In this document: in pieces, positions 4,657-39,052 of the stretch
Layout of the letters: each line of letters starts with the position of its first letter
Position numbering within the stretch: position 1 is the stretch's first letter
Assembly: GCA_021295815.1 (NCBI GenBank)
Contig: JAGWBQ010000015.1
Coordinates: forward strand, 1-48,146
Direction of reading: 5' to 3'
Source: Gemmatimonadota bacterium
GTDB lineage: Bacteria; Gemmatimonadota; Gemmatimonadetes; Longimicrobiales; Gaopeijiaceae
DNA: 48,146 nt
Translations under genes and position numbers: made by a program
Notes under the pieces: model-generated
Databases searched by the model: none
Told to the model about the DNA's origin: nothing
What the model saw: only the letters and a program-made list of their open reading frames with translations

Positions 4657-6497
4657 CGGCCGACCGTCGCTCTCGCGGCGCTCTCGGCCTTGGCCGCCTT
4701 CTTGGCCTTCCGGCGCCGGTTCGGGTCGAGCTGGCGTTTGCGGAGCCGGATCTCGTCGGGCGTGACCTCGATGAGTTCGTCGTCGGCAATGAATTCCAGG
4801 GCCAGTTCGAGCGTCATACGGCGAGGAGTCTCGAGCCGCAGGGCCTCGTCCGCAGCCGTGGTGCGCATGTTGGTGAGCTTCTTCTGACGGCTCACGTTCA
4901 CGTCCATGTCGCCGGAGCGCGAGCACTCGCCGACGATCATGCCGCCGTAGCACTCGATTCCCGGATCCACGAAGAGCTCCCCCCGTTCCTGCAGCCCGAA
5001 GAGCGCGAAGGCCACCGCCTTGCCCTGCCGATCCGCGACCAGCGCGCCACGACTGCGGCCTCGCACCGGTCCCGCCCACTCGTCCCACGAATGGAAACGA
5101 TGGTGGAGCGTTCCTTCACCCTTGGTGTCGGTGAGGAAATCGGTCCGGTATCCGAAGAGGCCGCGCGCGGGGACCCGAAACTCCAACCGAGTGACCCTGG
5201 AGTCTCCTACGGGCCTCATCGAGGTCATCTTGCCCCGCCGGCGACCGAGCTTCTCGATGACCGTGCCGGTCGCCTCGTTCGGAACCTCCGCCACCACCTC
5301 CTCGAACGGCTCCAGCGTCTGCCCGTTCTCCCCGGTCCGGGTCACGACCCGCGGTCTGGACACCATGAATTCGTAGCCCTCGCGTCTCATGGTCTCCATA
5401 AGCACGGTAAGGTGCAGCTCCCCGCGTCCGCTGACGGAGAAGGTGCCGGTGCGTTCGGTCGGAGCCACCCGCAGAGCCACGTTGCGTTCGAGCTCCCGGT
5501 CAAGCCTCTCGGAGAGCTGCCGGGTGGTCACGTACTTGCCCGATCGCCCCGCGAACGGAGAGTCGTTGACCGAAAAGTCCACCGTGATGGTCGGCTCCTC
5601 GACAGTGATGCCCGAGAGTCGGTCCGGGCTTGCCGGATCGGCGATGGTGTCGCCGATCTCGACCCTCGCGAGGCCCGCCAGCGCTACGATGTCGCCGGCT
5701 CGGACCTCGTCGACCGGAAGGCGTTCGAGTCCGCTGAATGTGAAGAGGCCGCCTGCGCGCGCGTTCTCGACGACCTCGCTTCCGATGCGTGCGACCGGGT
5801 CGCCCACCGCGAGCCGTCCCCGCTCCACCCGCCCTATGGCGATGCGGCCCAGGTAAGAGGAGTGATCCAGAGTGGAGACCAGCATTTGGAACGGACCGTC
5901 GGCGCTCACCTGCGGAGCGGGCACGTGTTCGAGGACCGCGTCGAAAAGAGGCGCGAGATCGGTGCCCGGCTCGTCCGCCGTGTCGGACGCCCATCCGTCG
6001 CGCCCGACCGCGTAGAGGAAGGGGGCGTCGAGCTGCTCGTCCGTGGCGTCGAGATCGATGAGCAGTTCGAGAACCTCGTCCTGGACCTCCTCGGGCCGGG
6101 CGTCGCCGCGATCCACCTTGTTGATGACGATCAACGGAGCCAGCCCGAGGTCGAGCGCCTTCCGGGTCACGAACCGGGTCTGCGGCATTGGTCCCTCTGC
6201 GGCGTCGACCAGAAGCAGGACCCCGTCGACCATGCGCAGGATACGCTCCACTTCTCCACCGAAATCGGCGTGCCCGGGGGTGTCGACGATGTTGAGCTTC
6301 ACCCCCCGCCACTCCACCGAAGTGTTCTTGGAGAGGATGGTGATGCCCCGTTCTCGCTCGAGCGGGTTCGAGTCCATGATCCTCTCGGCGACCTCCTGGC
6401 CGCGGCGAAAGACCCCGGACTGCCTGAACATCTGGTCGACGAGGGTGGTCTTGCCGTGATCGACGTGCGCGATGATCGCGACGTTGCGCAGTTCCAC
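4653..6497 (-). CDS. typA: Translational GTPase TypA/BipA
   Basis: 614 residues, the normal length for TypA (BipA), an EF-G-like GTPase that binds the 70S ribosome and helps ribosome assembly and stress or cold adaptation. The N-terminal GTPase domain shows G1 AHVDHGKTT, switch-region RERGITI, G3 DTPGHADFGGEV and G4 NKVDR. The EF-G-like beta-barrel and alpha/beta domains follow, then the TypA-specific C-terminal domain (FGLQERGELFVDPG, CSRSGDMDVNVSRQKKLTNMR) and a basic tail. The start is a GTG (ELRNVAIIAHVDHG follows it directly, as in homologues). The stop overlaps the next gene by 4 bases. It lies 57 bases after the purine permease gene and may share its promoter. Confidence 0.96.
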   Translation of the reverse strand: MELRNVAIIAHVDHGKTTLVDQMFRQSGVFRRGQEVAERIMDSNPLERERGITILSKNTSVEWRGVKLNIVDTPGHADFGGEVERILRMVDGVLLLVDAAEGPMPQTRFVTRKALDLGLAPLIVINKVDRGDARPEEVQDEVLELLIDLDATDEQLDAPFLYAVGRDGWASDTADEPGTDLAPLFDAVLEHVPAPQVSADGPFQMLVSTLDHSSYLGRIAIGRVERGRLAVGDPVARIGSEVVENARAGGLFTFSGLERLPVDEVRAGDIVALAGLARVEIGDTIADPASPDRLSGITVEEPTITVDFSVNDSPFAGRSGKYVTTRQLSERLDRELERNVALRVAPTERTGTFSVSGRGELHLTVLMETMRREGYEFMVSRPRVVTRTGENGQTLEPFEEVVAEVPNEATGTVIEKLGRRRGKMTSMRPVGDSRVTRLEFRVPARGLFGYRTDFLTDTKGEGTLHHRFHSWDEWAGPVRGRSRGALVADRQGKAVAFALFGLQERGELFVDPGIECYGGMIVGECSRSGDMDVNVSRQKKLTNMRTTAADEALRLETPRRMTLELALEFIADDELIEVTPDEIRLRKRQLDPNRRRKAKKAAKAESAARATVGR

Positions 6498-6554
6498 GGG
6501 GCTAGCGGTCCGCCGGCTGCCGGGAAGAACGAAGCTGTGGCGACACGTCCATCC

Positions 6555-7850
6555 CTAACCGAACGTGAATTTGAGTGCGAAGAGCCCGGCCACGATCCAC
6601 ATTCCCGCGCTCACCTCCCGAGCCCGGCCCGAACTCAGCTTGATGAGGACGTAGGCGATGAAGCCGAACCCAAGTCCGGTCGAAACCGAGTAGGTGAACG
6701 GCATGGCCAGAACCGTGACCATGGCCGGGACCGCTTCGGTGAGGTCCCGCCAATCGATCCGCGCGAGGGACCTCATCATGACGCAAGCCACGAAGAAGAT
6801 GGCCGGAGCGGTGGCGAAATTCGGTATGGCCTCGGCGATCGGCGCGATGAAGAGAGCGAGCAGGAAGAGGCAGGCGACCGTCACCGCGGTGAGCCCGGTC
6901 CTGCCGCCGACCCTCACTCCCGCCGCGCTCTCGACGTAGCTGGTGACGGTCGAGGTGCCCATGCACGCACCTACGACGGTCGCAGCCCCGTCGGCGACGA
7001 GAGCTCGACCCATGCGGGGCGTCTGTCCGGCCTCGTCGGTGAGACCGGCCTCCTGCATGACCGCGACGAGCGTGGGTGTGGTGTCGAAGACGTCGATCAT
7101 GAAGAAGGTGCCCACGACCGCGATGAGCCCGAGTTCGAGCGCACCGACCACGTCGAAGGCGAGGAAGCTCGATTCCACCGAGGGGGGCAGCGACACCAGC
7201 GAGCCTTCGGGGCCGTCCGCGATTCCCGACACCCAGGCGACGACGGTGACCCCGATTATCCCGATCAGGATGGCTCCGGTCACCTTGCGGTTGTCGAGAG
7301 TGGTGACGAGCACGAGTCCGACCGCTGCCAGGATCACTGGCCAGGATGTGAGATCGCCCACGCCCAGCAGGGTGGCGGGGTCGTCCACGCTCACGCCCGC
7401 CTGCTGCATGGCGATCAGGGCCAGGAAGGCTCCGATTCCCGCCGCCATGGCCGTCTTCTGCGAGGGCGGGATGGTGCGCACGATGGCCTTCCGGATCGGG
7501 AGCGCCGAGATGATCACCATCAGGACGCCCGACACGAAGACCGCGCCCAGCGCAACCTGCCACGAGTAGCCCATGCCGCCCACCACCGAGTAAGCGAAGT
7601 AGGCGTTGATTCCCATCCCCGGCGCCAGCGCCACGGGGTAGTTGGCATGGAGCCCCATGACGGCCGAGCCCACGGCGCCCGCCACGCACGTCGCCACCAT
7701 CGCCGCGCCGAAATCGATCCCGGCATCTTCGAGGATTCTCGCATTCACCACCACTATATAGCTCAGGGTGAGGAATGTGGTCAGGCCCGCGAGGAGCTCG
7801 GTACGAACGGTCGAGCCCCGGGCCTGGACCTGAAAGAACCGCTCGAGCAT
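6555..7850 (-). CDS. NCS2-family purine (adenine/guanine/hypoxanthine-type) permease
   Basis: 431 residues, very hydrophobic throughout, with about 12 to 14 membrane segments. The start LERFFQVQARGSTVRTE followed by LLAGLTTFLTLSYIVVVN is the hallmark of the AzgA/PbuG (COG2252) branch of NCS2 transporters, which import purine bases with protons. Other family segments visible are PGMGINAYFAYSVV (pseudo-symmetric half helix), FMIDVFDTTPTLV and the CMGTSTVTSYVESAAGV substrate-site helix. Exact purine specificity cannot be read. It is divergent from the amidohydrolase gene and may head the typA operon. Confidence 0.92.
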   Translation of the reverse strand: MLERFFQVQARGSTVRTELLAGLTTFLTLSYIVVVNARILEDAGIDFGAAMVATCVAGAVGSAVMGLHANYPVALAPGMGINAYFAYSVVGGMGYSWQVALGAVFVSGVLMVIISALPIRKAIVRTIPPSQKTAMAAGIGAFLALIAMQQAGVSVDDPATLLGVGDLTSWPVILAAVGLVLVTTLDNRKVTGAILIGIIGVTVVAWVSGIADGPEGSLVSLPPSVESSFLAFDVVGALELGLIAVVGTFFMIDVFDTTPTLVAVMQEAGLTDEAGQTPRMGRALVADGAATVVGACMGTSTVTSYVESAAGVRVGGRTGLTAVTVACLFLLALFIAPIAEAIPNFATAPAIFFVACVMMRSLARIDWRDLTEAVPAMVTVLAMPFTYSVSTGLGFGFIAYVLIKLSSGRAREVSAGMWIVAGLFALKFTFG

Positions 7851-25832: not shown

Positions 25833-27221
25833 ATGTCCACACCGCGAATCGTGGCGGTCGCACATGCGATCGCCGTTCTCCACAGCACCGCCGCCGCGTG
25901 CGCCGAAGCGCAAACGCTCACGTACAGTACGAACGGCGACACGGCGTTGGCCGCCCTCATCGAGGAAGCCGTCGAGCGCAACCCGCAGCTCCGAGCTGCA
26001 CGGCTGGAATGGGTGGCCGCCGAGGCGCGCATCCCCCAGGCATCGGTGCTGCCCAATCCCACCGTGTCCTTCACTCAACACGTGCTCGGCCCCCAGACGA
26101 GGGTCGGACCGCAGTTTTCCAACATCTCGCTGAGCCAGTCCATGCCCTGGTTCGGCACCCTCGCGGACCGCGCCGCCATGGCCGAGTCCGAGTCCGCGAT
26201 TCGCGGCGAGTCCTACCAGGCGTTGAGAGCCGAGATCGTGCGCCGGGTCAAACTGGCCTGGTACGATCTCATTTATCTCGACCGGGCGTTGCGGGTAACC
26301 GGTGAGGAGGAGGAGCTTCTGCGGCACTACGAGTCTCTCGCTCGGGCGCGCTACTCCCAGGGCTCGGGCCAGTTGCAGGAGGCGGTAAAGCTCCAAGCCG
26401 AGATTACACGGGTCCTGAACCGACGACAGGAGCTGCTGCAGCAACGGACGGATACCGAAGCCCTGCTGAACCATCTGACGGCCCGACAGATCGGGGCCGC
26501 TATTGCGCCGGTCCTCGACGTCGGATATCGTCCCCAGGACCCCATCGACGCCGAAACCTTGCAGGAGATCGGCCTCGCAGTCAGGCCGGAGATCGCCGCG
26601 GCCCGGATGGGTGTGGAGAGAAGCCGACACGCAGTAAGCTTGGCCAACCGACGTTCCCGGCCCGGTCTTACGGTCGGCATCGCCTGGGGTGCCGTGCTGC
26701 CCCGACGCGACGATCCGGGACTCGCCCTCCCTCCCGCAGGCAACGGCCGGGACCATTTCAGCCTGACTCTCGGTGCCAGCATTCCCTTCTCCAGAACCGC
26801 GAACCGAGCGGCCGTGGAGGAAGCTTCGGCCAAGCTGGCGGCGGCCGAAGAGACCTACCGGGACCTGACCGCCGGCGCGGCCATGGGCGTGCGCACCGCC
26901 GCGTTCCGCCTGGAGACCGTCGCCCGGCAACTCGATCTCTTCGAACGAGCGCTGATCCCGCAGGCCGAACACGCGCTCCGCACGACCGAAGAGGCGTATT
27001 CCACCGGGGTCACCGGCGTGGTCGAACTCCTTGACAGCGAACGACTGCTTCTCGATGTCCGGCTCGGCTTCGCGCGGCTGCAATCCGACTACATGAAGGC
27101 GTCGGCGGAGATGGAACGCGCGACCGGATCTCCGTTTCCGACCTCCGCCGGGAACGACGGGACGTCGGCGGGCGGCCCGACCTTCCTCGTCGACCCGGGC
27201 TCCAAGGAGGTGGGATCATGA
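25833..27221 (+). CDS. cusC: TolC-family outer membrane efflux protein (CusC-like)
   Basis: 462 residues. A signal peptide (AIAVLHSTAAACAEA) is followed by two repeated coiled-coil/beta units typical of outer membrane factors: LAALIEEAVERNPQLRAARLEW, ASVLPNPTVSFTQ and LSQSMPWFGTLADR in the first half, then IGLAVRPEIAAARMGVE and GASIPFSRTANRAAVEEA in the second. It forms the outer membrane channel of the tripartite pump with the next two gene products. GAGGAA lies before the ATG. The stop overlaps the start of the adaptor gene by 4 bases (ATGA at 27218). cusC is named by operon context; sequence alone says metal-RND-type outer membrane factor. Confidence 0.88.
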   Translation: MSTPRIVAVAHAIAVLHSTAAACAEAQTLTYSTNGDTALAALIEEAVERNPQLRAARLEWVAAEARIPQASVLPNPTVSFTQHVLGPQTRVGPQFSNISLSQSMPWFGTLADRAAMAESESAIRGESYQALRAEIVRRVKLAWYDLIYLDRALRVTGEEEELLRHYESLARARYSQGSGQLQEAVKLQAEITRVLNRRQELLQQRTDTEALLNHLTARQIGAAIAPVLDVGYRPQDPIDAETLQEIGLAVRPEIAAARMGVERSRHAVSLANRRSRPGLTVGIAWGAVLPRRDDPGLALPPAGNGRDHFSLTLGASIPFSRTANRAAVEEASAKLAAAEETYRDLTAGAAMGVRTAAFRLETVARQLDLFERALIPQAEHALRTTEEAYSTGVTGVVELLDSERLLLDVRLGFARLQSDYMKASAEMERATGSPFPTSAGNDGTSAGGPTFLVDPGSKEVGS

Positions 27222-28639
27222 CGGCGCCCCAGCGAATGCGCGGCACCTGGTTCGCGGCGTTCGGGATCGTGGTGGGTCTCGTGATCGGAGTGGGGGGAAC
27301 GGCCCTGCTGCTGTCGTCCCGGATCGGCGGAGAAGCGGAAGAGAACACGCGGCAGGGCACGACCGCCCGGGGTGACGACCTGGCCGCGAGCGACACGGAC
27401 GGTGCGCGACGGATCCTGTACTGGCGCGCACCCATGGATCCGAACTACACCTCGGACCGGCCCGGAAGGTCCCCCATGGGGATGGATCTCGTTCCCGTCT
27501 ACGAAGACGCACCTTTACCGCAGGCGGACACGGATTCGGATGCCGTCGGTGCAGAGAGCGGCATCCGCGTGAGCCGGTCCTTCCTCCAGAACTTCGCGGT
27601 GCGAACTGCGGAGGTCCGTCGGGGAGCGCTGCCGGTCACGATCCGAACCGTCGGAACCCTGGCCCACAACGAGGAACGGGTCGTGTCGGTGCAGACGAAG
27701 TACGAGGGGTGGATCGAACGCGCCAGCGTCAACAACGTGGGTGAGACCGTGGCCAGGGGTGACGCGCTCTTCGAGATTTATAGCCCGCAACTGGTCACGA
27801 CCCAGCGCGAGTTCCTGGGAGCGATGGACTACCTGCGACGCCTGCAAGCCCTGGGCGCTTCACCGGAGGCCGTGGGACGGGCGCAATCCCTCCTCGCGGC
27901 GGCACGGGAGCGGCTGCTCTACTGGGACATGACCGCAGCCCAGATCGAGGCGTTGGCGGAGTCGCAGACCATCGAACGAACGATCCAGGTCTTCTCGCCC
28001 GCCGACGGCTTCATAGTCGAGAAGATGGGCGATTCCATGGAGGGGATGAAGCTCGGCCCCGGAATGACGGTCCTGAAGATCGCCGACCACTCCGTTCTGT
28101 GGGCCGAAACCGAGTTCTACGAGGGCGATCTCCGCCATGTTCGCGAAGGCCAGACCGTGACCGTGGTGGCCGATGCGTTTCCCGGACAGGAATGGACGGG
28201 TCGCATCCTCTTCTTCCGCCCGGCCGTGGATACGCGCACGAGAACGCTGACCGCGTTCGTCGAAGTCGCAAATCCGTCGCTCCAGCTCAGGCCGATGATG
28301 TACGTCGATGTGACGGTGCGGGCGAGCGGGTCCGCAGACGCCCTGACCGTGCCTGCCGAAGCGATCCTGCACAGCGGGACGCGCGCGGTGGCGATAGTGG
28401 CGCGCGGCGAAGGGATGTTCGAGCCCCGCGAGGTCGTGCTCGGCGTGGAGAGCGACGGGAGGCAGGAGGTGACCGACGGACTTGCCGAGGGTGAATCCGT
28501 GGTTGTCTCGTCCCAGTTCCTCATCGACTCGGACGCGAACCTCAGAGGTGCGATCTCGCAACTGCTCAGCGAAGCGGAGCCGACGGCGTCCGAGGGCGCG
28601 GCGGCCGATACGGCCACCCCCGGCCACAACCACAACTGA
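27218..28639 (+). CDS. cusB: RND efflux periplasmic adaptor with heavy-metal-binding domain (CusB-like)
   Basis: 473 residues. One N-terminal membrane anchor (FGIVVGLVIGVGGTALLL) leads to a heavy-metal-binding domain at about 68-92 (LYWRAPMDPNYTS, SPMGMDLVPVYED), found in CusB-type adaptors. The membrane-fusion core has IRTVGTLAHNEERVVSVQTKYEGWIERASV (lipoyl-like and barrel), an alpha-hairpin, IFSPADGFIVEKMGDSMEGM-type lipoyl return, and TLTAFVEVANPSLQLRPMMYVDVTV. The tail TPGHNHN is His-rich. It links the inner membrane pump to the outer membrane channel and may hand Cu(I)/Ag(I) to CusA. Starts within the TolC stop codon and ends 12 bases before cusA. Confidence 0.93.
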   Translation: MTAPQRMRGTWFAAFGIVVGLVIGVGGTALLLSSRIGGEAEENTRQGTTARGDDLAASDTDGARRILYWRAPMDPNYTSDRPGRSPMGMDLVPVYEDAPLPQADTDSDAVGAESGIRVSRSFLQNFAVRTAEVRRGALPVTIRTVGTLAHNEERVVSVQTKYEGWIERASVNNVGETVARGDALFEIYSPQLVTTQREFLGAMDYLRRLQALGASPEAVGRAQSLLAAARERLLYWDMTAAQIEALAESQTIERTIQVFSPADGFIVEKMGDSMEGMKLGPGMTVLKIADHSVLWAETEFYEGDLRHVREGQTVTVVADAFPGQEWTGRILFFRPAVDTRTRTLTAFVEVANPSLQLRPMMYVDVTVRASGSADALTVPAEAILHSGTRAVAIVARGEGMFEPREVVLGVESDGRQEVTDGLAEGESVVVSSQFLIDSDANLRGAISQLLSEAEPTASEGAAADTATPGHNHN

Positions 28640-28651
28640 CGGAGAGGTCCG

Positions 28652-31600
28652 ATGTTGGAGCGAATTGTCGACTTTTCCATACGGAATCGGCTGCTGGTCG
28701 TGCTGGGAGCCGCGCTGGTCATCGGGTTGGGGGCGGTATCGCTCAACAGGTCTCCGGTCGATGCGATTCCCGACCTCTCCGACGTCCAGGTCATCATCCA
28801 GACCGATTACCCCGGGCAGGCGCCGCGCATCGTCGAGGACCAGGTCACCTATCCGCTCGCGACTCGGATGCTGGGTGCGCCCTTCGCACAGGTGGTCCGA
28901 GGATATTCGTACTTCGGCGTGTCTTTCGTTTATGTGATCTTCGAAGACGGCACCGATCCCTACTGGGCCAGAAGCCGTGTGCTGGAGTACCTCGATGCCG
29001 TCTCGGATCAGCTTCCGTCCGGTGCAAACCCGACCCTCGGTCCCGATGCCACGGGAGTCGGATGGGCGTTCGTCTACGCCCTGAAGTCCGAGCTCCAGGA
29101 TCTCGGCGAGCTGCGGTCGATCCAGGACTGGTACCTGAAACAGGAGCTGAGCGCGGTGCCGGGCGTCTCGGAAGTGGCCAGCGTGGGTGGCTTCGTGCGC
29201 CAGTATCAGGTCACGGTAGACCCCAATCGTCTCCGAGCGTTCGATCTCTCCATTTCGGAGATTCGCGAAGCGATTCGGGCGAGCAACAGCGACGTGGGTG
29301 GCGGGTTGATCGAAGTCGCCGAGAAGGAGTTCATGATCCGGGGTCTCGGCTACGTCCGGTCGGTCGAAGACATCCGGCGCATCGGTCTCGGAGCTGGCGT
29401 GGACGGCACGCCGATTCTGTTGGAGGACGTGGCGCGGGTGAGCGTGGGGCCGGAGAGCAGACGCGGGCTTGCCGAGTGGAACGGCGAGGGTGAGATCGTA
29501 GGCGGAATCGTGGTGGTGCGGCCGGGGACCGACGTCCGCAAGGTGATCGACGATGTGAAGGCCAAGCTTGCGGAGATCGGGCCCGGTCTGCCGGACGGCG
29601 TCGAGATCGAGGTCGCCTACGATCGCACATCCCTGATCGACCGCGCGGTCGCGAGCATCCGGGCGAGCCTCCTGCAACAGCTCCTGATCGTAGGCCTGGT
29701 GTGTCTGATCTTCCTCTCTCACATCCGAAGCGGGTTCGTCGCCGTCGTGGCGCTGCCCACCGGGATCCTGCTGGCGATGATCGCAGTGAAGCTTCAGGGG
29801 CTGACGCTCAACATCATGTCGCTGGGGGGCATCGCGGTCGCGATCGGAACCATGGTCGACGCCGGGATCGTGATGGTCGAGAACGCCCACAGGCATATCG
29901 CGCGGAGCGGGGGCCGACGGTCGCGCTGGGAGGTGGTCGCGGGTGCGGCTCGCGAGGTCGGCCCGTCCCTCTTCCTGGCCTTGCTGGTGATCACCGTGTC
30001 GTTCATGCCGGTCTTCGCGCTGGAAGCGCAGGAGGGACGTCTCTTCCGACCGCTCGCCTTCACCAAGACCTACGCGATGACGGCGGCGGCCCTGCTCTCG
30101 GTGACGCTCGTGCCGGTGCTGGTGGGCTACTGGGTGCGGGGAAGGATTCGTCGGCCGTCCGCAACGCCGGCAGGGCGGGTTCTTGCGGGCGCGTACAGGC
30201 CGGTCGTCGGGTTCGTGCTGCGTTTTCGCGGATGGGTGATCGGAGCAGCCGTGATCGCGCTTCTGGCGACCTGGCTGCCGTGGTCGCGCCTCGGTTCGGA
30301 GTTCATGCCGCCGTTGTGGGAGGGGGATCTGCTCTACATGCCCACGACCCTCCCGGGGGTGTCGATCACCGAGGCCCGAGAAATCCTCCAACAGACGGAT
30401 CGGGTCATCCGCACCTTCCCCGAGGTCCGGCACGTGTTCGGGAAGGTCGGCCGAGCGGAATCCGCTACCGATCCGGCACCGCTCTCAATGATCGAGACCA
30501 CCATCGCCCTCAAGCCGCGAAGCGAGTGGAGGCCCGGAATGACGCCTGACGCGCTGATCGCGGAGATGGACGCGGCTCTCACGATTCCCGGATTGACGAA
30601 CGCATGGACGATGCCGATCCGGGGCCGCATCGACATGCTGTCCACCGGCATCAGGACGCCGGTCGGGATCAAGGTGGCCGGACCCGATCTGGCCGAGCTC
30701 GACCGACTGGGTCGAGAGATTGAGGCGGTCGTGAGGGACGTGCCGGGCACGGCCAGCGTCTATGCCGACCGCCTCCTGGGCGGCAACTACCTCGATATCG
30801 AGATCGACCGGGTCGCGATCGCGCGCCACGGGTTGACCGTTCAGGACGTGCAGGACGTGATCCGGACCGCGATCGGCGGCATGAACATCACCACGACGGT
30901 GGAGGGGCTAGAGCGCTATCCGGTGAATCTGCGCTACGGTCGGGAACTGAGAGACGACCTTCCGGGGTTGCGTTCCGTGCTGGTCGCGACACCGGACGGG
31001 CACAACGTGCCGCTGGGAGAACTCGTCGGCATGGAGTACGCTTCGGGACCCCCCAGCATCAAGAGCGAGGGGGCGAGGCCGAACGCCTGGGTGTACGTCG
31101 ATGTCCGCGACACCGACCTTGGGAGCTACGTGAAAACGGCTCGCGAGGCGGTCACGAACGGCGTGTCTCTACCGGAAGGATACACGCTGGCCTGGAGCGG
31201 CCGGTACGAGTTCCTGGAGCGCGCGGAAGAACGCCTTGCTCTGCTCATTCCGCTCACGCTCTTCCTGATCTTCGTCCTCATCTACGTCGCCACGAAATCG
31301 GCGACCGAGACCCTGCTCGTGCTGGCGGGCGTCCCGTTCGCCGTGGCGGGATCCTTCTGGCTGCTCCATGCGCTCGACTACGATCTCAGCGTCGCCGCGT
31401 GGGTCGGCGTGATCGCGCTCGCCGGCCTCTATGCGGAAACCGCCATCGTCTTCCTTCTCTACCTCAACATCTCGTACCGGGACTACCGGGATCGCGGGCT
31501 GCTCACCGACCGGGGCGCACTCGTGCAGGCGATCCGAAAGGGTGCGGTGCGGCGGGTTCGCCCCGTCGTCATGACCATCGCGACCGACGTGTTCGGACTG

Positions 31601-31780
31601 CTGCCGATCATGTGGAGCGCGGGCGCCGGAGCCGACGTGATGAAGAGAATAGCGGCCCCGCTGGTGGGCGGGGTCGTCACGTCGGGAGCCGTCGTGCTGC
31701 TGCTCCTGCCGGTGGGCTTCCTACTGTTGAAGCAGAGAGGTCTGCCGAAGGCGACGGAGGTCGCGAAGGCGGACGGTTAG
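28652..31780 (+). CDS. cusA: Cu(I)/Ag(I) efflux RND transporter CusA
   Basis: 1042 residues, the standard length of heavy-metal-efflux RND pumps, which export metal with proton uptake. The membrane proton-relay helix reads GGIAVAIGTMVDAGIVMVEN, the Cus rather than Czc form. The three methionines that bind Cu(I)/Ag(I) in E. coli CusA are conserved: Met563 (LLYMPTT), Met613 (LSMIETT) and Met662 (RIDMLSTG). This supports monovalent copper or silver as substrate. The closing helix LLPVGFLLLKQRG is intact. GGAGAGG precedes the ATG. An inverted repeat follows the stop. No regulator such as CusRS or CueR is beside the operon. Confidence 0.97.
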   Translation: MLERIVDFSIRNRLLVVLGAALVIGLGAVSLNRSPVDAIPDLSDVQVIIQTDYPGQAPRIVEDQVTYPLATRMLGAPFAQVVRGYSYFGVSFVYVIFEDGTDPYWARSRVLEYLDAVSDQLPSGANPTLGPDATGVGWAFVYALKSELQDLGELRSIQDWYLKQELSAVPGVSEVASVGGFVRQYQVTVDPNRLRAFDLSISEIREAIRASNSDVGGGLIEVAEKEFMIRGLGYVRSVEDIRRIGLGAGVDGTPILLEDVARVSVGPESRRGLAEWNGEGEIVGGIVVVRPGTDVRKVIDDVKAKLAEIGPGLPDGVEIEVAYDRTSLIDRAVASIRASLLQQLLIVGLVCLIFLSHIRSGFVAVVALPTGILLAMIAVKLQGLTLNIMSLGGIAVAIGTMVDAGIVMVENAHRHIARSGGRRSRWEVVAGAAREVGPSLFLALLVITVSFMPVFALEAQEGRLFRPLAFTKTYAMTAAALLSVTLVPVLVGYWVRGRIRRPSATPAGRVLAGAYRPVVGFVLRFRGWVIGAAVIALLATWLPWSRLGSEFMPPLWEGDLLYMPTTLPGVSITEAREILQQTDRVIRTFPEVRHVFGKVGRAESATDPAPLSMIETTIALKPRSEWRPGMTPDALIAEMDAALTIPGLTNAWTMPIRGRIDMLSTGIRTPVGIKVAGPDLAELDRLGREIEAVVRDVPGTASVYADRLLGGNYLDIEIDRVAIARHGLTVQDVQDVIRTAIGGMNITTTVEGLERYPVNLRYGRELRDDLPGLRSVLVATPDGHNVPLGELVGMEYASGPPSIKSEGARPNAWVYVDVRDTDLGSYVKTAREAVTNGVSLPEGYTLAWSGRYEFLERAEERLALLIPLTLFLIFVLIYVATKSATETLLVLAGVPFAVAGSFWLLHALDYDLSVAAWVGVIALAGLYAETAIVFLLYLNISYRDYRDRGLLTDRGALVQAIRKGAVRRVRPVVMTIATDVFGLLPIMWSAGAGADVMKRIAAPLVGGVVTSGAVVLLLLPVGFLLLKQRGLPKATEVAKADG

Positions 31781-31963: not shown

Positions 31964-33190
31964 ATGACGAAGCGAATCCGGCCCATGACACCTCGAGCAA
32001 CTCCGTCCAACGCAGGCGAAGGGCCTGGCTCGGACGGGATTCCCTGGTACCTGGGCGCGGTGCTCTTCGCGTCGACGAGCGTTGTGGTGGGCGTGATCTG
32101 GGACATTTCCTGGCACCGAACCATCGGACGCGACTCGTTCTGGACGCCGGCCCACGTGGCGATCTACGCCGGAGGACTCGCCGCCGGTCTCTCCTGCGGA
32201 TGGCTGGCCCTGAAGACGACCTTTGGAGGCACCGGTCCGGAGGTGGGACGGTCGGTGCGGATCTGGGGACTGCGCGCACCGCTCGGAGCCTGGCTGGGGA
32301 TTTGGGGCGCGATAGCGATGCTCACCTCCGCACCGCTCGACGACTGGTGGCACAACGCGTACGGGCTCGACGTCGAAATCCTGAGTCCGCCCCACGTGGT
32401 CCTCGCCATGGGCATCGACGCGATCCAGCTCGGGGCGCTGCTCATGGCCCTGTCGTGGCAGAATCGCGCGTCGCGGGCGAGACGGCGGCGATTGTGCTTC
32501 GCCTACGCCTACGGGGCCGGGATGCTCCTGCTGGCGATGGCTGTGCTGACGATGGAGCGCTCGTTCCCCAACGACTGGCACGGAGCCGAATTTCACATGA
32601 TTTCGGCAGGCGTTTACCCGGTGGTCCTCTTCGCCGTCGGGCGGGCCGGACGCCTCCCGTGGCCGGCCACATGGGCGAGCCTGATCTATACGGCTGTGAC
32701 CTTGGCCATGATGTGGATCCTTCCACTCTTTCCAGCGGAGCCGATGCTGGCGCCCATAATGCGCAGCGTGGATGCGATGGTGCCGCCGCCGTTCCCATTG
32801 CTCCTGATCCTGCCTGCGGTCGGAATCGACATGCTTCTGCAAAGGACTTCGGGGTCCGACCGGGCTCCGCCGCGGCGTTCGAGGGACTGGGGGATCGCCG
32901 CGCTGGGTTCGATCGTGTTCGTGGGCGTCTTCGGTGTCGCGCACTGGTACTTCGGCGAGTTCATGCTGTCCGAGGGTGCGCGCAACTACTTCTTCCAAGG
33001 AGACCAATGGGGGTACTTCTCCGCTCCCGGTCCCTGGCAGTACGAGTTCTGGCACGGCGGCCGCTTCGCGGGCGGTGATTTTTCGGCCTCCCATTTCTGG
33101 GCGCGAGCGGTATGGGCGCTGCCGATAGGGTTCGTCTCGGCACGGGCCGGCCTTTCCATGGGCAACTGGATGCGGGAGGTGCGCAGATGA
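31964..33190 (+). CDS. Uncharacterised multi-pass membrane protein with duplicated DxxWH...H motif
   Basis: 408 residues with about nine or ten membrane helices. No named family is recognised. A motif occurs twice: Asp47-x-x-Trp50-His51 with His64 (WTPAH), and Asp126-x-x-Trp129-His130 with His144 (SPPH), each followed by a membrane helix. Related His pairs lie at 206 and 211 (NDWHGAEFH) and more His near the C-terminus (QYEFWHGG, SASHFWAR). This is the look of a membrane metal site. The gene sits after cusA and overlaps the next gene by ATGA, which supports a role in copper handling. It could be a permease, a chaperone receptor or an enzyme; the sequence does not decide. The start at 31964 has GAAGAG very close upstream; an in-frame ATG at 31985 is an alternative. 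Confidence 0.65.
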   Translation: MTKRIRPMTPRATPSNAGEGPGSDGIPWYLGAVLFASTSVVVGVIWDISWHRTIGRDSFWTPAHVAIYAGGLAAGLSCGWLALKTTFGGTGPEVGRSVRIWGLRAPLGAWLGIWGAIAMLTSAPLDDWWHNAYGLDVEILSPPHVVLAMGIDAIQLGALLMALSWQNRASRARRRRLCFAYAYGAGMLLLAMAVLTMERSFPNDWHGAEFHMISAGVYPVVLFAVGRAGRLPWPATWASLIYTAVTLAMMWILPLFPAEPMLAPIMRSVDAMVPPPFPLLLILPAVGIDMLLQRTSGSDRAPPRRSRDWGIAALGSIVFVGVFGVAHWYFGEFMLSEGARNYFFQGDQWGYFSAPGPWQYEFWHGGRFAGGDFSASHFWARAVWALPIGFVSARAGLSMGNWMREVRR

Positions 33191-34695
33191 AGCGCGCCGC
33201 CATCTTCGCCGCCGCCATTTATCTGGCGACTGCGGCGCACGTCGGCAGCAAGAACGTTTTCTTCTCGGGCGCGGCGGGTCCTTACGACGTTTCGGTCGTG
33301 GTTCGTCCGCCCGACGTCGTTCCGGGGCTGGCGGAGATTTCGGTGCGAGTTCCGGATGGCCGGAACGACGTCGAGCGCGTCACGGTTCGTCCCGTGCGCT
33401 GGGATGCGCAGGAGGGAGGTGCGCCCCCGCCCGATCCCGCCGTTCCCGTGCCGGGCGATTCAGAGCTCTACAGCGCCGAGCTGTGGCTGATGACCGTAGG
33501 TGCATACCGAATCGAGGTGACCGTGGACGGTACGCGCGGATCCGGAACCGCGTCGGTGCCCGTGACCTCGGTGATGCGAGGCGTGCGCGACCTGCCGCCC
33601 GCCCTGGGAGGGTTGCTCGTCGTATTGGGTGGTCTGCTGCTGTCCGGTGCGGTCGCGATCGCGGGCGCTGCGGTGCGAGAGAGCCGGCTGGCGGCCAACG
33701 AGGGGGTCCGAAACACCCATCGCCGTCGCGCCCGTTTCGCCATGGCTTTGGCGTCGGGCACGCTGCTGGCGGCCGCATACGGAGGGTACGCCTGGTGGAA
33801 CGCGGTCGATCGGGAGGCACGCAGCGGCATCTTCCAGCGCCTCTCCGTGGAGGGCGTGGTGACCCCGGCTGTCGGTGGGCCGGTGCTCGAAGTCCGGGTC
33901 ACGGATCGGTCGTGGCTCGGGCGGAACTGGAGCCCGCTCGTGCCCGACCACGGCAAGCTGATGCACATGTTCGTGATCGGCGCACCCGACATGCGACGCT
34001 TCGCGCATGTCCACCCCGTTCCGGTCGACTCGGCGACATTCCGCGCGCCCTGGCCGGACCTGCCTGCGGGCGAGTACCGGATCTACGGCGACATCGTGCA
34101 CGAATCCGGCTTCGCGCAGACCGTCGTCGACACCCTGTTCGTACTCGACGAGGCACTCACGCGAGCCGAGCCGGTAGCCGTCGGGGAGGGGGATCCGGAC
34201 GATTCCTCGTGGCGCGGGGCGCCGGTCCCTTTGACCGATTCAAACCCGTCGACCCCCCTCGCGGACGGATCTACCTTGGTGTGGATGGGCGAGACCGAGC
34301 TCCGCGTCGACGAAGAGGTCAAGCTGACCTTCGCGGTACGGGATCCGGTGGGAGACCCGGCGGCGCTCGAGCCGTACATGGGAATGTTAAGCCACGCCGC
34401 CCTGACTCGGACCGACGGTTCGGTCTTCGTGCATCTGCACCCGGCGGGCACGATCTCCATGGGCTCGCTCTCCGTGCTCGCGCCGGATGCGCGTCCGCCG
34501 ACGCAGGCTGGTGCGGTCGAGGAAGGCATGGGCGACGGCACGCGCGATCTGATGGTCGCCGGCTCGGACGACCCGGCCGCCCGGGTGGAGTTTCCCTACG
34601 CCTTTCCGCAGCCCGGCGAGTACGCCGTCTGGGTGCAGGTGAAGCGAGAGGGCCAGGTGCTGACCGGGGCGTTTCGGGTGAAGGTCGAGGAATAG
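33187..34695 (+). CDS. Membrane-anchored protein with two YtkA/FixH-like His-rich domains
   Basis: 502 residues. An N-terminal signal helix (AIFAAAIYLATAAHV) and an Ig-like beta region (about 30-135) lead to two membrane helices (LLVVLGGLLLSGAVAIAGAA and MALASGTLLAAAYGGYAWW). Two extracytoplasmic beta-domains follow, each with a His signature: HGKLMHMFVIGAPDM then FAHVHPVP, and YMGMLSHAALTR then FVHLHPAGTISM. These patterns match YtkA/FixH-like domains, often seen in copper trafficking and cytochrome oxidase assembly proteins. A metal-binding periplasmic role with the preceding membrane protein is inferred. The ATG is inside the previous stop (ATGA). It converges on the tryptophan operon 61 bases away; no terminator is visible between them. 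Confidence 0.72.
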   Translation: MKRAAIFAAAIYLATAAHVGSKNVFFSGAAGPYDVSVVVRPPDVVPGLAEISVRVPDGRNDVERVTVRPVRWDAQEGGAPPPDPAVPVPGDSELYSAELWLMTVGAYRIEVTVDGTRGSGTASVPVTSVMRGVRDLPPALGGLLVVLGGLLLSGAVAIAGAAVRESRLAANEGVRNTHRRRARFAMALASGTLLAAAYGGYAWWNAVDREARSGIFQRLSVEGVVTPAVGGPVLEVRVTDRSWLGRNWSPLVPDHGKLMHMFVIGAPDMRRFAHVHPVPVDSATFRAPWPDLPAGEYRIYGDIVHESGFAQTVVDTLFVLDEALTRAEPVAVGEGDPDDSSWRGAPVPLTDSNPSTPLADGSTLVWMGETELRVDEEVKLTFAVRDPVGDPAALEPYMGMLSHAALTRTDGSVFVHLHPAGTISMGSLSVLAPDARPPTQAGAVEEGMGDGTRDLMVAGSDDPAARVEFPYAFPQPGEYAVWVQVKREGQVLTGAFRVKVEE

Positions 34696-34756: not shown

Positions 34757-35548
34757 TCACAAGGCCGACCTCATCTCCCACAGGTCGGGGAAGGCGGGCT
34801 TGACCGTGGTCGCCAGGTAGGCCGCGCCCGCGCTGTCGCCCGTACCCGGTTTGGTGCCGATCGTACGCTCCACAACCTTGACGTGCCTGTACCGCCACTC
34901 CTGGAATCCCTCGTCGAGATCCACGAGACGCTCGCACAGGTTGACCAGCGCCGGGTCGGAGCGGTAGGCCCCGGCCAGCATTTCCTGCACTCCGAGGTCC
35001 GGCGTGACGGGTTCGGTCAGGTCGCGATCGAGGGCGGACTCCGGAACGTGGTACCCTCCGCGGGCCAGAAACCGGAGGAACGCGTCCCAGAGCGACGGCT
35101 CCTCGAGCCTCCTCGCCAAGCGCTGCTGCTCGTCCAGGTCCGGAAAACCCTTGAGCAACGAAGCCCGTTTGATGCCGAGCGTGAACTCCAGCTCCCGGAA
35201 TTGGGCGGACTGGAACCCGCTGGCGGTTTCGAGCCGGTCGCGGAAGGACTCGAACTCCACGGGGGTCATCGTCTCCAGGACGTCCATCTGAGCCACCAGC
35301 ACCTTCATGATAGAGCGCACGCGCCTGAGAGTGGCGGCGACGCGGGCCCCGTCTCCTCCGATCAGGAGCTCGCAGCCGCGATCAAGCTCGTGGAGCGCGG
35401 CCTTGAACCACAGTTCGTGGACCTGGTGCACGATGACGAAGAGCATCTCGTCGTGCTCCGGAGGGTCGGAGAGGGGCCGCTGCAGCGACAGCAGCTCCGG
35501 CAGCGCTATGTACTGCGGGTAGTCCAACGGTTGCGGACTCTCACTCAT
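34757..35548 (-). CDS. kynA: Tryptophan 2,3-dioxygenase
   Basis: 263 residues, normal length. This haem enzyme opens the indole ring of L-tryptophan with O2 to give N-formylkynurenine, the first step of the kynurenine route. Family segments are DEMLFVIVHQVHELWFKAALHEL (with the active-site His), FESFRDRLETASGFQSAQFRELE, RYRHVKVVERTIGTKPGTG and FPDLWEMRSAL. Its ATG overlaps the end of the monooxygenase/reductase gene by 8 bases (ATGAGTGA), making it the last gene of the seven-gene operon. Cytoplasmic. Confidence 0.96.
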   Translation of the reverse strand: MSESPQPLDYPQYIALPELLSLQRPLSDPPEHDEMLFVIVHQVHELWFKAALHELDRGCELLIGGDGARVAATLRRVRSIMKVLVAQMDVLETMTPVEFESFRDRLETASGFQSAQFRELEFTLGIKRASLLKGFPDLDEQQRLARRLEEPSLWDAFLRFLARGGYHVPESALDRDLTEPVTPDLGVQEMLAGAYRSDPALVNLCERLVDLDEGFQEWRYRHVKVVERTIGTKPGTGDSAGAAYLATTVKPAFPDLWEMRSAL

Positions 35549-37895
35549 CTCCGGTATCCGGTCCGTAGGCGCCGCCGGTCGCCCCGAACCGCGGCGTGTA
35601 GTCTTTCAGCGTCTCGTATTGCGAAGGCCACGGAAGGGGATACCCGAGCGCGTGTGCTGCGTGCCTGGTCCAGTACGGGTCCCACAAGTGAGCGCGGGCC
35701 ATGAGGCAGAGATCGGCCCTTCCCGCCGCGATGATCCCGTTCACGTCCTCGAACGACGAGATGTTCCCGACGGCCATCGTGGCGATTCCGACCTCGTGGC
35801 GAATGCGGTCCGCGAAGGGCGTCTGGAACTGACGACCGTACCGGGGCCGCTGGTAGGGGACCGTCTGGCCGGCCGAGACGTCGACGATGTCGCAGCCGCA
35901 GGCCTTGAGCGCGCGCGAAATATCCACGGCGTCCTCGGGCTCGGTGCCCCCGGGCCACCAGTCGACCGCGGACAGGCGCACGGAGAGCGGGCGCTCGTCC
36001 GGCCACAAATCGCGCACGGCCCTCACCACGCGCAGCGGAAAGCGCATCCGGTTCTCTAGGGTTCCGCCGTAGCGGTCGGCCCGACGGTTGGTCAAGGGCG
36101 ACAGGAAACTGGCGAGGAGATACCCGTGCGCCATGTGTATCTCGACGATGTCGAAGCCGGCCTCGATGGCCATCTCGGTCGAGCGTTCGAAATCCGCGAC
36201 CAGCGCGTCCATACCCGCCTCGTCCAGCTCCGCAGGCACAGGGCTGTGCTCGAAGTACCCGACGGGTGATGCCGAAACGATCGGCCAGCCGCCCTCTTCC
36301 AGAGGCTCGTTCGGCCCCTCCCAGTCGAGCCGGGTCGCGCCCTTGCGCCCGGCGTGGCCGAGCTGGATCCCGATCCGCACGGGTGTGAAGCGCTTCACGA
36401 AATCGACGAGACGGCGCCACGCCCCGACGTGTTGGTCCAGATAGATGCCCGCGCATCCCGGCGAGATGCGTCCGTCGCGCCCGACGGCGGTCATCTCGGC
36501 CATGACGAGTCCGGCTCCGCCGACGGCGCGCGACCCGAGGTTGACGAGGTGCCAGTCGTTGACCGAGCCGTCCCGGGCCGAGTACTGGCACATGGCCGAC
36601 ACGCCCACCCGGTTGGGCAGCATGAGTTCCCGAATGCGAAACGGAGTGAATAGAGGGGGCGGAGGCGAGCGGTCTCCAGCGGCGCGCGCGATCCCCAGCG
36701 CAGCTTCGTGCTCAGCTATCGTCACCCCGGCCTGAATCTCCGACTCTCGCGCCACCCAGGCGTCCACCTTCCGGACGAAGGCGGGGTCGCGCTCGCGCAG
36801 GTTCTCGTGGGAGATGCGCAGGCTGCGGGTGAGCAGAGAGAAGCCGAATTGTTCGGGCTCCAGACGGATGTAGCGTTCGGTGTCCTCGAACCATTGGAGG
36901 CTTGCCTGGGCGGCGCGTTGGAGCGACTCCGCCGGGCGGCGACGCTCGGCCTCGTAGGCGGCGAGAGCTCGACCCAGCTCTTCCCGGCCGCGACCGTCCG
37001 GCCCGTTCTCTCGCAACGCCTCCGCAAGACTGATCGCGTCGAGCAAGGCCAGGCGGGTGCCGGACCCCACCGAGAAGTGGGCGGTGTGGGCCGCGTCTCC
37101 GACCAGCACGACGTTGCCTGCCGACCAGCGCACGTTCGTCACCGTCGTGAATCGCCGCCAAGTCGACCGGTTTCGGATCAGCGGGTGGCCGTTCAGCTCC
37201 TCGGCGAACAGGCGCGAGAGGAAGCGGACCGTTTCCTCCTCGCTCGCCGCGTCCATCCCCGCTCGCCGCCAGGTCTCCTCCGTGGCTTCCACGATGAAGG
37301 TCGAGCGGCCCCGGGCGTCGTACTGGTAAGCGTGGACACGCCAGAGTCCGTGCTCGTCTTCTCGGAACCAGAAGGTGAAGGCGGGAAAGGGCCGGGTCGT
37401 CCCCAGCCAGACGAAACGGTTGGGACGCAGGTCGACGGAGGGCTCGAAGGTGTCGGCGAAGCGGCTGCGCACCATGCTGTTGACCCCGTCGGCGCCGATT
37501 ACCAGGTCGGCGTCGAGGAGCGGCCCCAGGTCGTCCGCCTCAGCCTCGAAATTGAGCTCGATCCCGAGCTCGCGGCAGCGGCGGTGCAGCAGCAGAAGGA
37601 GTTCGCGGCGCGAGAGCCCTGCGAAGCCGTGGCCGGTGGACTTCAGTAGGTGGCCCCGATAGTGGATGTGGATGTCGTCCCAGTGGTGGAACCGTTTCTC
37701 GACGGCCCGAAGCGTGGCCGGGTCGGCGTCGGCGACCTCCTGCAGGGTCGCGTCCGAGAAGACGACGCCGAAGCCGAAGGTATCGTCCGGCCGGTTGCGC
37801 TCGAAGACCTCGACGGTTCGGCTCGGGTCGTCCTTCTTGAGGAGCAGCGCGGCGAAGAGTCCGCCGGGTCCGCCCCCGACGACGTTGACCTTCAA
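35541..37895 (-). CDS. 2-aminobenzoyl-CoA (anthraniloyl-CoA) monooxygenase/reductase, two-domain
   Basis: 784 residues in two fused flavin domains. Residues 1 to about 395 are an aromatic-hydroxylase-type FAD monooxygenase (VNVVGGGPGGLFAALLL, GADGVNSMVRSRF, VVLVGDAAHTAHFSVGSGTR). The remainder is an Old Yellow Enzyme-type FMN reductase (LFTPFRIRELMLPNRVGVS, MCQYSARDG, HMAHGYLLASFLSPLTNRR, NRMRFPLRVVRAVR). This fusion is the architecture of the enzyme known from Azoarcus evansii, which hydroxylates and reduces 2-aminobenzoyl-CoA and so removes aromaticity. Salicylyl-CoA 5-hydroxylase is a related possibility, but the neighbouring tryptophan dioxygenase favours aminobenzoyl-CoA. Start is TTG at 37895, overlapping the preceding stop as TTGA. 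The frame is open upstream but that part is shadow. Confidence 0.92.
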   Translation of the reverse strand: MKVNVVGGGPGGLFAALLLKKDDPSRTVEVFERNRPDDTFGFGVVFSDATLQEVADADPATLRAVEKRFHHWDDIHIHYRGHLLKSTGHGFAGLSRRELLLLLHRRCRELGIELNFEAEADDLGPLLDADLVIGADGVNSMVRSRFADTFEPSVDLRPNRFVWLGTTRPFPAFTFWFREDEHGLWRVHAYQYDARGRSTFIVEATEETWRRAGMDAASEEETVRFLSRLFAEELNGHPLIRNRSTWRRFTTVTNVRWSAGNVVLVGDAAHTAHFSVGSGTRLALLDAISLAEALRENGPDGRGREELGRALAAYEAERRRPAESLQRAAQASLQWFEDTERYIRLEPEQFGFSLLTRSLRISHENLRERDPAFVRKVDAWVARESEIQAGVTIAEHEAALGIARAAGDRSPPPPLFTPFRIRELMLPNRVGVSAMCQYSARDGSVNDWHLVNLGSRAVGGAGLVMAEMTAVGRDGRISPGCAGIYLDQHVGAWRRLVDFVKRFTPVRIGIQLGHAGRKGATRLDWEGPNEPLEEGGWPIVSASPVGYFEHSPVPAELDEAGMDALVADFERSTEMAIEAGFDIVEIHMAHGYLLASFLSPLTNRRADRYGGTLENRMRFPLRVVRAVRDLWPDERPLSVRLSAVDWWPGGTEPEDAVDISRALKACGCDIVDVSAGQTVPYQRPRYGRQFQTPFADRIRHEVGIATMAVGNISSFEDVNGIIAAGRADLCLMARAHLWDPYWTRHAAHALGYPLPWPSQYETLKDYTPRFGATGGAYGPDTGDE

Positions 37896-39052
37896 CCTTC
37901 GGAGTCCCGCACCAGGGCTCCCCCGACGATCAGTCGCTGGATCTCCGTCGTCCCTTCGTAGATGCGCAGCCCCCGCACGCTCCGGTAGAGGCGTTCGACC
38001 GGATGCGAGGCCAGCACGCCCCGCCCTCCTAGCACCTGCACCGCCCGGTCGACGATTCGCTGGGCGGCCTCGGTGCAGAAGGCCTTGGCCATCGCCGCCT
38101 CGAGCGTGATGCGCGCCGCGCCCCGGTCCTTCTCCCACCCTGCCCGGTAGGCCAGCAATCGCCCGGCGGTCAGCTCGACGGCCGAATCGGCGAGCTTGGC
38201 CTGGACGAGCTGGAAGGATCCGAGCGGCTTCCCGAACTGTTTGCGGCTCCGAGCATGCTCGATGGCCTCGAAGAGCGCCCGTCCCGCCATCCCGCACGCC
38301 GCAGCCGCCACGGTGGGACGAAGCCGGTCCAGCGTCGCCATCCCGGTCTTGAAGCCGGTTCCGGGCTCGCCCAGCATGGCCGAGGCCGACACGCGGCAGC
38401 CGTCGAGGCGGATCTCGCCGAGCGGATGCGGTGCGCTCATCACCTGCGCACCGACGAACTCCAGTCCCGGTGCGTCGGCGGGCACCACGAAGCACGAAAT
38501 GCCGCGCGTTCCCGCACTCGGATCGGTCGTCGCGAAGACCACGTAGAAGTCGGCGATGCCTGCGTTCGAAATGAAGGCCTTGCCGCCGTTGAGCACATAG
38601 CGGCCCGCGCCGTCGGGCACGGCCGCCGTTGCGAGCGCGGCCACGTCCGAACCCGCCTCCCGCTCGGTCATCGCGAATGCGCCGATCGCGTCGCCCGCGA
38701 GAGCCCGCGCCGTCCAACCCCCAGGGTCCTCGCCGCGAATCAGCCCCGGAGTAGCGCTCAGCCCCTGCAACGCGAAAACCGAATCGGCCAGCGGCGACCA
38801 CCACGCCAGCGCCTCGCGCGCGATCAGGCAGCCGCGAACGTCACCCGCGCGGATCGGCTCGAAGAGCCCCGCCGTTCCCATCCGCCCCACCAGCTCCTTC
38901 GCCCGTTTCCGCGCTGCGGAGTCGCTCTCCGGATCGCCCTCGTTCCCGATTTCCTCGCGGCAGAACGCCCGAACCCGCTCGACGTACCTGCGGTGCGACG
39001 GCTCCACGAACGCTGCCACGGCATCGAGCGAGAGCCCGCGCCGGTCAATCAA
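37892..39052 (-). CDS. Acyl-CoA dehydrogenase
   Basis: 386 residues from a TTG (39052) that overlaps the previous gene by 8 bases (TTGATTGA); a later in-frame GTG is an alternative. FAD-dependent enzyme oxidising an acyl-CoA at C2-C3. Visible are FAMTEREAGSDVAAL (flavin and substrate loop), VLNGGKAFISNAGIADFYVV, ARSRKQFGKPLGSFQLVQAK and AVQVLGGRGVL. RGLRIYEGTTEIQR holds the catalytic Glu (E of YEG). In this operon the substrate is probably a cyclohexane or cyclohexene carboxyl-CoA made after dearomatisation, or the opened C7 acyl-CoA. Cytoplasmic. Confidence 0.92.
   Translation of the reverse strand: MIDRRGLSLDAVAAFVEPSHRRYVERVRAFCREEIGNEGDPESDSAARKRAKELVGRMGTAGLFEPIRAGDVRGCLIAREALAWWSPLADSVFALQGLSATPGLIRGEDPGGWTARALAGDAIGAFAMTEREAGSDVAALATAAVPDGAGRYVLNGGKAFISNAGIADFYVVFATTDPSAGTRGISCFVVPADAPGLEFVGAQVMSAPHPLGEIRLDGCRVSASAMLGEPGTGFKTGMATLDRLRPTVAAAACGMAGRALFEAIEHARSRKQFGKPLGSFQLVQAKLADSAVELTAGRLLAYRAGWEKDRGAARITLEAAMAKAFCTEAAQRIVDRAVQVLGGRGVLASHPVERLYRSVRGLRIYEGTTEIQRLIVGGALVRDSEG

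Follow-up and report, generated by a model that had tools for sequence, protein, structure and literature searches.

A duplicated Asp/His hairpin motif in a bacterial membrane protein family that looks like a remote relative of PmoC/AmoC

Genes and features at the locus

The window, that is, the whole stretch of DNA analysed here, comprises 48,146 nucleotides of a Gemmatimonadota bacterium (contig JAGWBQ010000015.1 of assembly GCA_021295815.1). Two overlapping genes are the subject of this work: gene C, which encodes a membrane protein with two similar Asp/His motifs, and gene B, which encodes an exported protein. Their features are collected in Table 1, together with the efflux genes that lie upstream.

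Table 1. Features of gene C, gene B and the upstream efflux genes, with positions in the window.
Feature	Position	Strand	Basis
OEP-CusB-CusA efflux genes (context only)	25833-27221, 27218-28639, 28652-31780	+	Pfam OEP, HlyD_D23/HMBD, ACR_tran
Gene C, 408-aa polytopic membrane protein	31964..33190	+	ATG start, TGA stop; ORF call
Gene C layout: PmoC-like core at residues 28-170, then about 5-6 further helices			AF2 and PDB profile matches
Motif 1, residues 47-64, D47-x3-H51-x4-R56-D57-x6-H64, CuC-like candidate site	32102..32155	+	Invariant in 105/105; PmoC alignment
Motif 2, residues 126-144, D126-x3-H130-x5-D136-x7-H144, CuD-like candidate site, Asp for Asn	32339..32395	+	Invariant in 106/106; MAFFT; repeat of motif 1
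Gene B, 502-aa exported partner	33187..34695	+	ATGA overlap with gene C; signal peptide by sequence
Gene B His18, predicted mature N-terminus (AA/HVGS cleavage point)	33238..33240	+	Invariant in gene B alignment A2; 79/80
Gene B metal-site candidate 1: D254, H255, H260, H274-x-H276	33946..34014	+	Invariant columns of alignment A2
Gene B metal-site candidate 2: M400, H403, H416-x-H418	34384..34440	+	Invariant columns of alignment A2

The OEP-CusB-CusA set is complete, lies on the same strand as gene C and ends 183 bp upstream of it, and its CusB has a heavy-metal-binding domain. CusCBA was considered as a functional partner of gene C and rejected, since a search with a working positive control did not find it in the flanks (up to 6 kb around gene C) of any of the 80 remaining loci. 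Besides gene B, no conserved neighbour was found across the 80 loci. A Pfam tally of 86 neighbours from about 30 non-actinobacterial loci was unremarkable and not copper-related, with no conserved catabolic or downstream oxidation genes. The gene neighbourhood was therefore dropped as a guide to function, gene B being the only conserved element.

The reverse strand of the window carries, at 34757-38804, a short gene for tryptophan 2,3-dioxygenase and, adjoining it, a long ORF that fuses an FAD monooxygenase with an old-yellow-enzyme-type part. The fusion resembles anthraniloyl-CoA monooxygenase, and the region is likely a tryptophan/kynurenine/anthranilate degradation cluster.

Fold and internal duplication of gene C

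A sequence-only reading of the window had pointed to D47, W50, H51 and H64, to a second set of D126, W129, H130 and H144, and to H206 and H211. All of these residues were verified at their positions in the translation. The AF2 model of the protein, computed with 64 sequences, has a mean pLDDT of 90.7 and a pTM of 0.90, with helices at residues 28-53, 62-88, 107-133, 142-168, 171-195, 208-228, 234-255, 282-295, 305-334 and 385-404. Each motif spans a helical hairpin. The Asp and the first His are located at the C-terminal end of one helix (28-53 or 107-133), and the second His is among the first residues of the following helix (62-88 or 142-168); therefore both hairpin turns are placed on the same side of the membrane, and not on opposite faces. 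From the positive-inside rule, with a basic N-terminus and basic loops at 89-106 and 168-177, these turns probably face outside the cytoplasm.

The internal duplication that had been claimed for the motif proved to be real. When the profile of residues 36-80 was compared with that of residues 114-160, HHalign gave an E-value of 7e-10 (probability 96.5%), whereas control segments taken from elsewhere in the protein gave 0.02-0.27. A family-only version of the comparison gave an E-value of 0.0023, and single-sequence shuffles gave z values of 2.7-6.6. The pattern common to both repeats is D-x2-W-H-x(3)-G-x-D-x(6-7)-H, and in most cases the last His follows closely on a Pro.

Conservation of the candidate ligands

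The two motifs are conserved well above chance expectation. Their eleven residues D47, W50, H51, R56, D57, H64, D126, W129, H130, D136 and H144 do not vary in any of 81 sequences, namely the window protein and an alignment of 80 homologues from Gemmatimonadota, Acidobacteriota, Verrucomicrobiota and a few others. Two of the peptides that recruited these homologues themselves contained the motifs, so conservation was examined again on 20 homologues recruited with a whole-protein HMM and no motif pattern. In these, and in five actinobacterial relatives found by tblastn, all ligands were kept with the exception of L155, an N-terminally cut ORF without motif 1; a further exception, outside the ligands, is the replacement of W50 by Leu in two Streptomyces relatives. 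The homologue check thus found the Asp/His ligands strictly kept in 105/105 sequences for motif 1 and in 106/106 for motif 2.

Across the 106 sequences, invariance among the His residues of gene C is confined to H51, H64, H130 and H144. The other His residues are not conserved in the alignment of 80 homologues (H206 in 80%, H211 in 25%, H364 in 12% and H377 in 1%). H206/H211 and the C-terminal His residues were therefore ruled out as extra ligands, and the further His pairs that had been counted as part of the feature fall away from it. Of the duplicated metal or redox site that was suspected, a duplicated metal site in a membrane protein is strongly supported by the conservation, the repeat and the hairpins on one face, and a redox role is a tentative proposal.

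Relationship to PmoC/AmoC

Single-sequence searches of Pfam, NCBIfam and the PDB with the window protein returned no useful match, and no Pfam or NCBIfam model covers the family when the models are searched with the window protein and its members. Nevertheless, the site does agree with one of a known kind, as motifs 1 and 2 correspond to the CuC and CuD motifs of PmoC/AmoC, the C subunit of the copper membrane monooxygenases, with the same spacings. In PmoC, CuC is bound by Asp156, His160 and His173 with Arg165 nearby, and CuD by Asn227, His231 and His245 (PMC12576850). The PmoC numbers run ahead of those of gene C by 109 throughout motif 1, also at R56, and by 101 throughout motif 2. Each set has exactly four invariant His residues, with spacings of 13/66/14 in the gene C family and 13/58/14 in PmoC.

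The five best PDB matches of a 64-member profile were all AmoC/PmoC chains: 9leg_C (E-value 9.6e-5), 9pxf_G (3.3e-4), 9cl6_C (7.5e-4), 7s4l_C (0.051) and 6cxh_C (0.065). In this alignment, DisWHrtiGRDtfwtpaH is paired with DASWHQVIIRDTSFTPSH. The Pfam family that matched most members was PF04896 (AmoC), with 12 of 64 members and a best E-value of 6.5e-4. In the reciprocal search, a profile built from 12 verrucomicrobial PmoC sequences was run over 12 genomes, and it was found that the matches, in 7 of the 12, were each a member of the gene C family. A direct HHalign comparison of the family with PmoC gave an E-value of 8.8e-5 over 20 columns. With an HMM of the core, 8 of 9 PmoC sequences ranked directly under the family members and above 5,186 decoy ORFs, taken from the loci, and all shuffles (E-values 4e-6 to 6e-3).

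An unsupervised MAFFT alignment of ten rows (the window protein, homologues, PmoC and actinobacterial relatives) showed D47, H51, R56, D57, H64, H130, P142 and H144 identical in all of them. In the same alignment D126 falls on the Asn of PmoC CuD, and this position is Asp in 106 of 106 gene C family sequences. The Foldseek search ranked AmoC 9pxf_G with the top probability in its list (0.91, over 157 columns, rmsd 5.1), although its E-value of 0.69 is not significant. The statistically significant PmoC alignment covers motif 1 only, and motif 2 rests on MAFFT, the spacing and the internal repeat. Judged from these comparisons, the proposed link to PmoC is well supported for motif 1, and for motif 2 the case is good but less formal.

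None of the family members searched reached the curated cut-offs of PF04896, TIGR03078 or NF041641; for PF04896, the genome matches scored 11-18 bits and the actinobacterial members 12.5-14.7 bits, against a cut-off of 26.7 bits, and the window protein by itself had no Pfam match. Neither PmoA (PF02461) nor PmoB (PF04744) was found in the genome of the window, which is 96% complete, and this absence is weaker than it appears because the searches had no true positive control, no control genome carrying these families (PF04744 matched nowhere). Gene C is therefore not a canonical monooxygenase, given the AmoC score below the cut-off, PmoA and PmoB not found, and a common part confined to the four-helix core. 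That it has a PmoC-type metal core we consider very probable.

Partner gene B

Gene B lies directly downstream of gene C in 79 of 80 loci and in all 20 loci recruited with the HMM. The sole exception among the 80 is a Bryobacterales locus (L041, 5910-7116), where the gene C homologue has no detectable gene B. The encoded protein consists of a signal peptide, a beta domain, two transmembrane helices (138-165 and 176-213) and two further beta domains (AF2 pLDDT 88.9). Cleavage of the signal peptide is predicted to expose His18. Besides His18, seven His residues are invariant, namely H255, H260, H274, H276, H403, H416 and H418, and the sites that they outline in Table 1 may bind metal. The two C-terminal beta domains repeat the pattern His-x(12-13)-His-x-His at residues 254-276 and 400-418 (33946-34440 in the window), so gene B may itself have a duplicated metal-binding domain.

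Gene B has weak YtkA/CopC-like matches, and its N-terminal domain matches a PDB copper-resistance protein with an E-value of 0.009. Profile search gave no PmoB match, and the fold search gave only generic Ig-like matches, with no PmoB among the 50 listed. The N-terminal domain has no conserved His beyond the N-terminal one, so the set of CuB ligands of PmoB is absent.

Distribution and the actinobacterial fused form

The gene C family is present in 78 of the 298 sampled genomes of Gemmatimonadota, the phylum of the window, and nearly always as a single copy. It also occurs in 17 of 297 Acidobacteriota genomes when fragments and one weak match are counted, in 2 of 246 Planctomycetota genomes and in some Verrucomicrobiota. 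Matches to PF04896 with an E-value of about 0.006 were seen in two other Verrucomicrobia genomes (L094 and L095). In the open-access literature, no description of such a PmoC-like family was found (subscription journals and preprints were outside the scope).

Relatives of 475-496 aa with both motifs are located on plasmids of Mycolicibacterium, Streptomyces and Leifsonia, and are labelled hypothetical proteins in the RefSeq plasmid records. Compared with the gene C family by HHalign (A1 against A6), they give an E-value of 4e-22. After a hydrophobic segment they run on into a beta domain that starts with AHDPGQG and is weakly similar to the N-terminal domain of gene B (E-value 0.018). Their neighbours are heavy-metal P-type ATPases, a multicopper oxidase, a four-helix copper-binding protein, metal-sensitive and CopY-type regulators, cupredoxins and YHS proteins. 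On plasmid pMYCCH.01 of Mycolicibacterium chubuense NBB4 (L139, 7360-9455), the fused relative adjoins a TetR regulator. The same arrangement in M. aubagnense (L119) suggests that the two are a conserved regulatory pair. An unannotated relative on a Rubrobacter marinus plasmid (L122, about 5990-7022) also has both motifs, and its reading frame is seemingly broken further downstream.

Discussion

The most likely reading of the two genes is a copper-site membrane complex. In our proposal, gene C would be remotely related to PmoC/AmoC and would have retained the core of four helices and two hairpins that holds CuC and CuD in those proteins. Hairpin 1 (D47, H51 and H64, with R56) would hold one copper and hairpin 2 (D126, H130 and H144) a second, and the two coppers would sit close together near the extracytoplasmic face. 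Gene B, anchored by its two helices, would present its mature N-terminal His and two His-x-His-type sites, and would either load the copper pair of gene C or pass electrons to it. The most likely activity would be redox chemistry carried out by copper at the surface of the membrane and probably requiring O2, with perhaps a small molecule or Cu(I) itself as the substrate. Copper is the likely metal of the gene C sites, and both sites may be occupied together. Taken as a whole, we hold this account of a redox complex built on a PmoC core to be rather more probable than not, while a redox or oxygenase-type activity, considered by itself, has a chance slightly short of even.

The main competitor is copper handling without catalysis. 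The membrane sites would then bind copper or pass it on, serving import, storage, sensing or detoxification much as CopC/CopD or YcnJ do, and gene B would be a periplasmic copper carrier; we regard this as a serious though tentative possibility. Its best argument is that the actinobacterial relatives lie among copper-resistance genes. It also agrees with CusCBA directly upstream of gene C in the window, with the predicted N-terminal His of gene B and its copper-resistance likenesses, and with the absence of conserved catabolic neighbours. However, CusCBA stands beside gene C in none of the other loci examined, and membership of gene C in CopD was rejected, as no CopD match appeared in the window protein, in the families listed for 64 members or in four actinobacterial relatives. 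The conserved CuC/CuD residues, including the Arg and the second acid, moreover exceed what a simple carrier would be expected to need. We lean slightly to redox because the CuD pair, which recent work takes as the active site of pMMO (PMC11194816), and its acid/Arg surroundings are strictly kept, beyond the needs of such a carrier.

In the strong form of the redox reading, the complex would be a genuine oxygenase like the copper membrane monooxygenases, with gene B in place of PmoB, the extra C-terminal helices of gene C in place of PmoA, and a small hydrophobic substrate. In favour of it, the two His residues of CuD, the active site of pMMO in that work, are kept in gene C; gene B, with its PmoB-like domain order, also has a predicted N-terminal His as PmoB does. 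We nevertheless consider this form unlikely, since a homologue of PmoA or PmoB was not found (for gene B, by profile or among the 50 listed fold matches), the CuD position has Asp for Asn, the HxH motifs of gene B are in its C-terminal domains and not in the N-terminal one, and conserved downstream oxidation genes are absent. Convergence, that is, an unrelated zinc or iron membrane protein with a coincidentally similar D-x3-H-x12-H, could draw on a sequence signal of only about 20-40 aligned columns and a weak overall fold match, but it is improbable when the likeness extends beyond the ligands (R56-D57, T-P-x-H and, in each repeat, the acid at +10), appears in both search directions and against decoys, and includes four invariant His residues that agree in order and spacing between the family and PmoC.

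The preferred reading, a copper-site membrane complex, bears on a long dispute, as the site of methane oxidation in particulate methane monooxygenase has been assigned to CuB, CuC or CuD. Gene C would offer a natural relative with CuC- and CuD-type sites but without PmoA and PmoB, and thus a smaller system in which to probe both, and its clear repeat suggests how the CuC/CuD pair arose. It is doubtful, but conceivable, that the family represents a second class of copper membrane oxygenase or oxidase, composed of the PmoC core alone and one exported partner, in phyla unknown for such enzymes. If so, gene C would retain the CuC/CuD pair in its ancestral, nearly symmetric state, and the two copper sites of methane and ammonia monooxygenases would have arisen by internal duplication of one helical hairpin. 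Since the family occurs in about a quarter of the sampled Gemmatimonadota genomes, in some Acidobacteriota and Verrucomicrobiota and on actinobacterial plasmids, and all of it is unannotated, it may have been overlooked in bacterial copper biology. In appearance it is a relative of the methane-oxidising machinery that has escaped notice.

Comparison with known systems

CopC is an exported beta-sandwich that begins with a His. The pair of genes is like CopC/CopD and YcnJ-type copper import in that a membrane protein is combined with a His-led exported beta-sandwich partner, and gene B has its weak YtkA/CopC likeness. Unlike these systems, gene C has no CopD match and its membrane ligands follow the PmoC pattern.

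The divergent CuMMO of Thermoplasmata has all three subunits in a C-A-X-B cluster, with the C site conserved and the D site absent (PMC9038741). Gene C resembles it as a remote relative of CuMMO in which the C site is conserved, but in the gene C family both sites are retained, and the search for A and B subunits gave none.

When compared to PmoB, gene B has the same order of signal peptide, mature N-terminal His (predicted), beta domain, two transmembrane helices and beta domain. The CuB ligands of PmoB are the N-terminal His and an HxH in the N-terminal cupredoxin domain, whereas gene B has three beta domains instead of two, with the HxH motifs in the C-terminal ones.

With PmoC/AmoC, gene C shares D-x3-H-x4-R-D-x6-H (CuC) followed in the same order by [N/D]-x3-H-x13-H (CuD), an acid that follows the first ligand by 10 residues in each motif, and a Pro slightly ahead of the last His. 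The differences are that the CuD position is Asp in gene C and Asn in PmoC, which could change the chemistry, and that the core is N-terminal in gene C, followed by 5-6 helices, and in the C-terminal part of PmoC. Only the four-helix core is common in a gene C protein of about ten helices, and the remaining 240 residues differ. The duplication is much clearer in gene C than in PmoC/AmoC.
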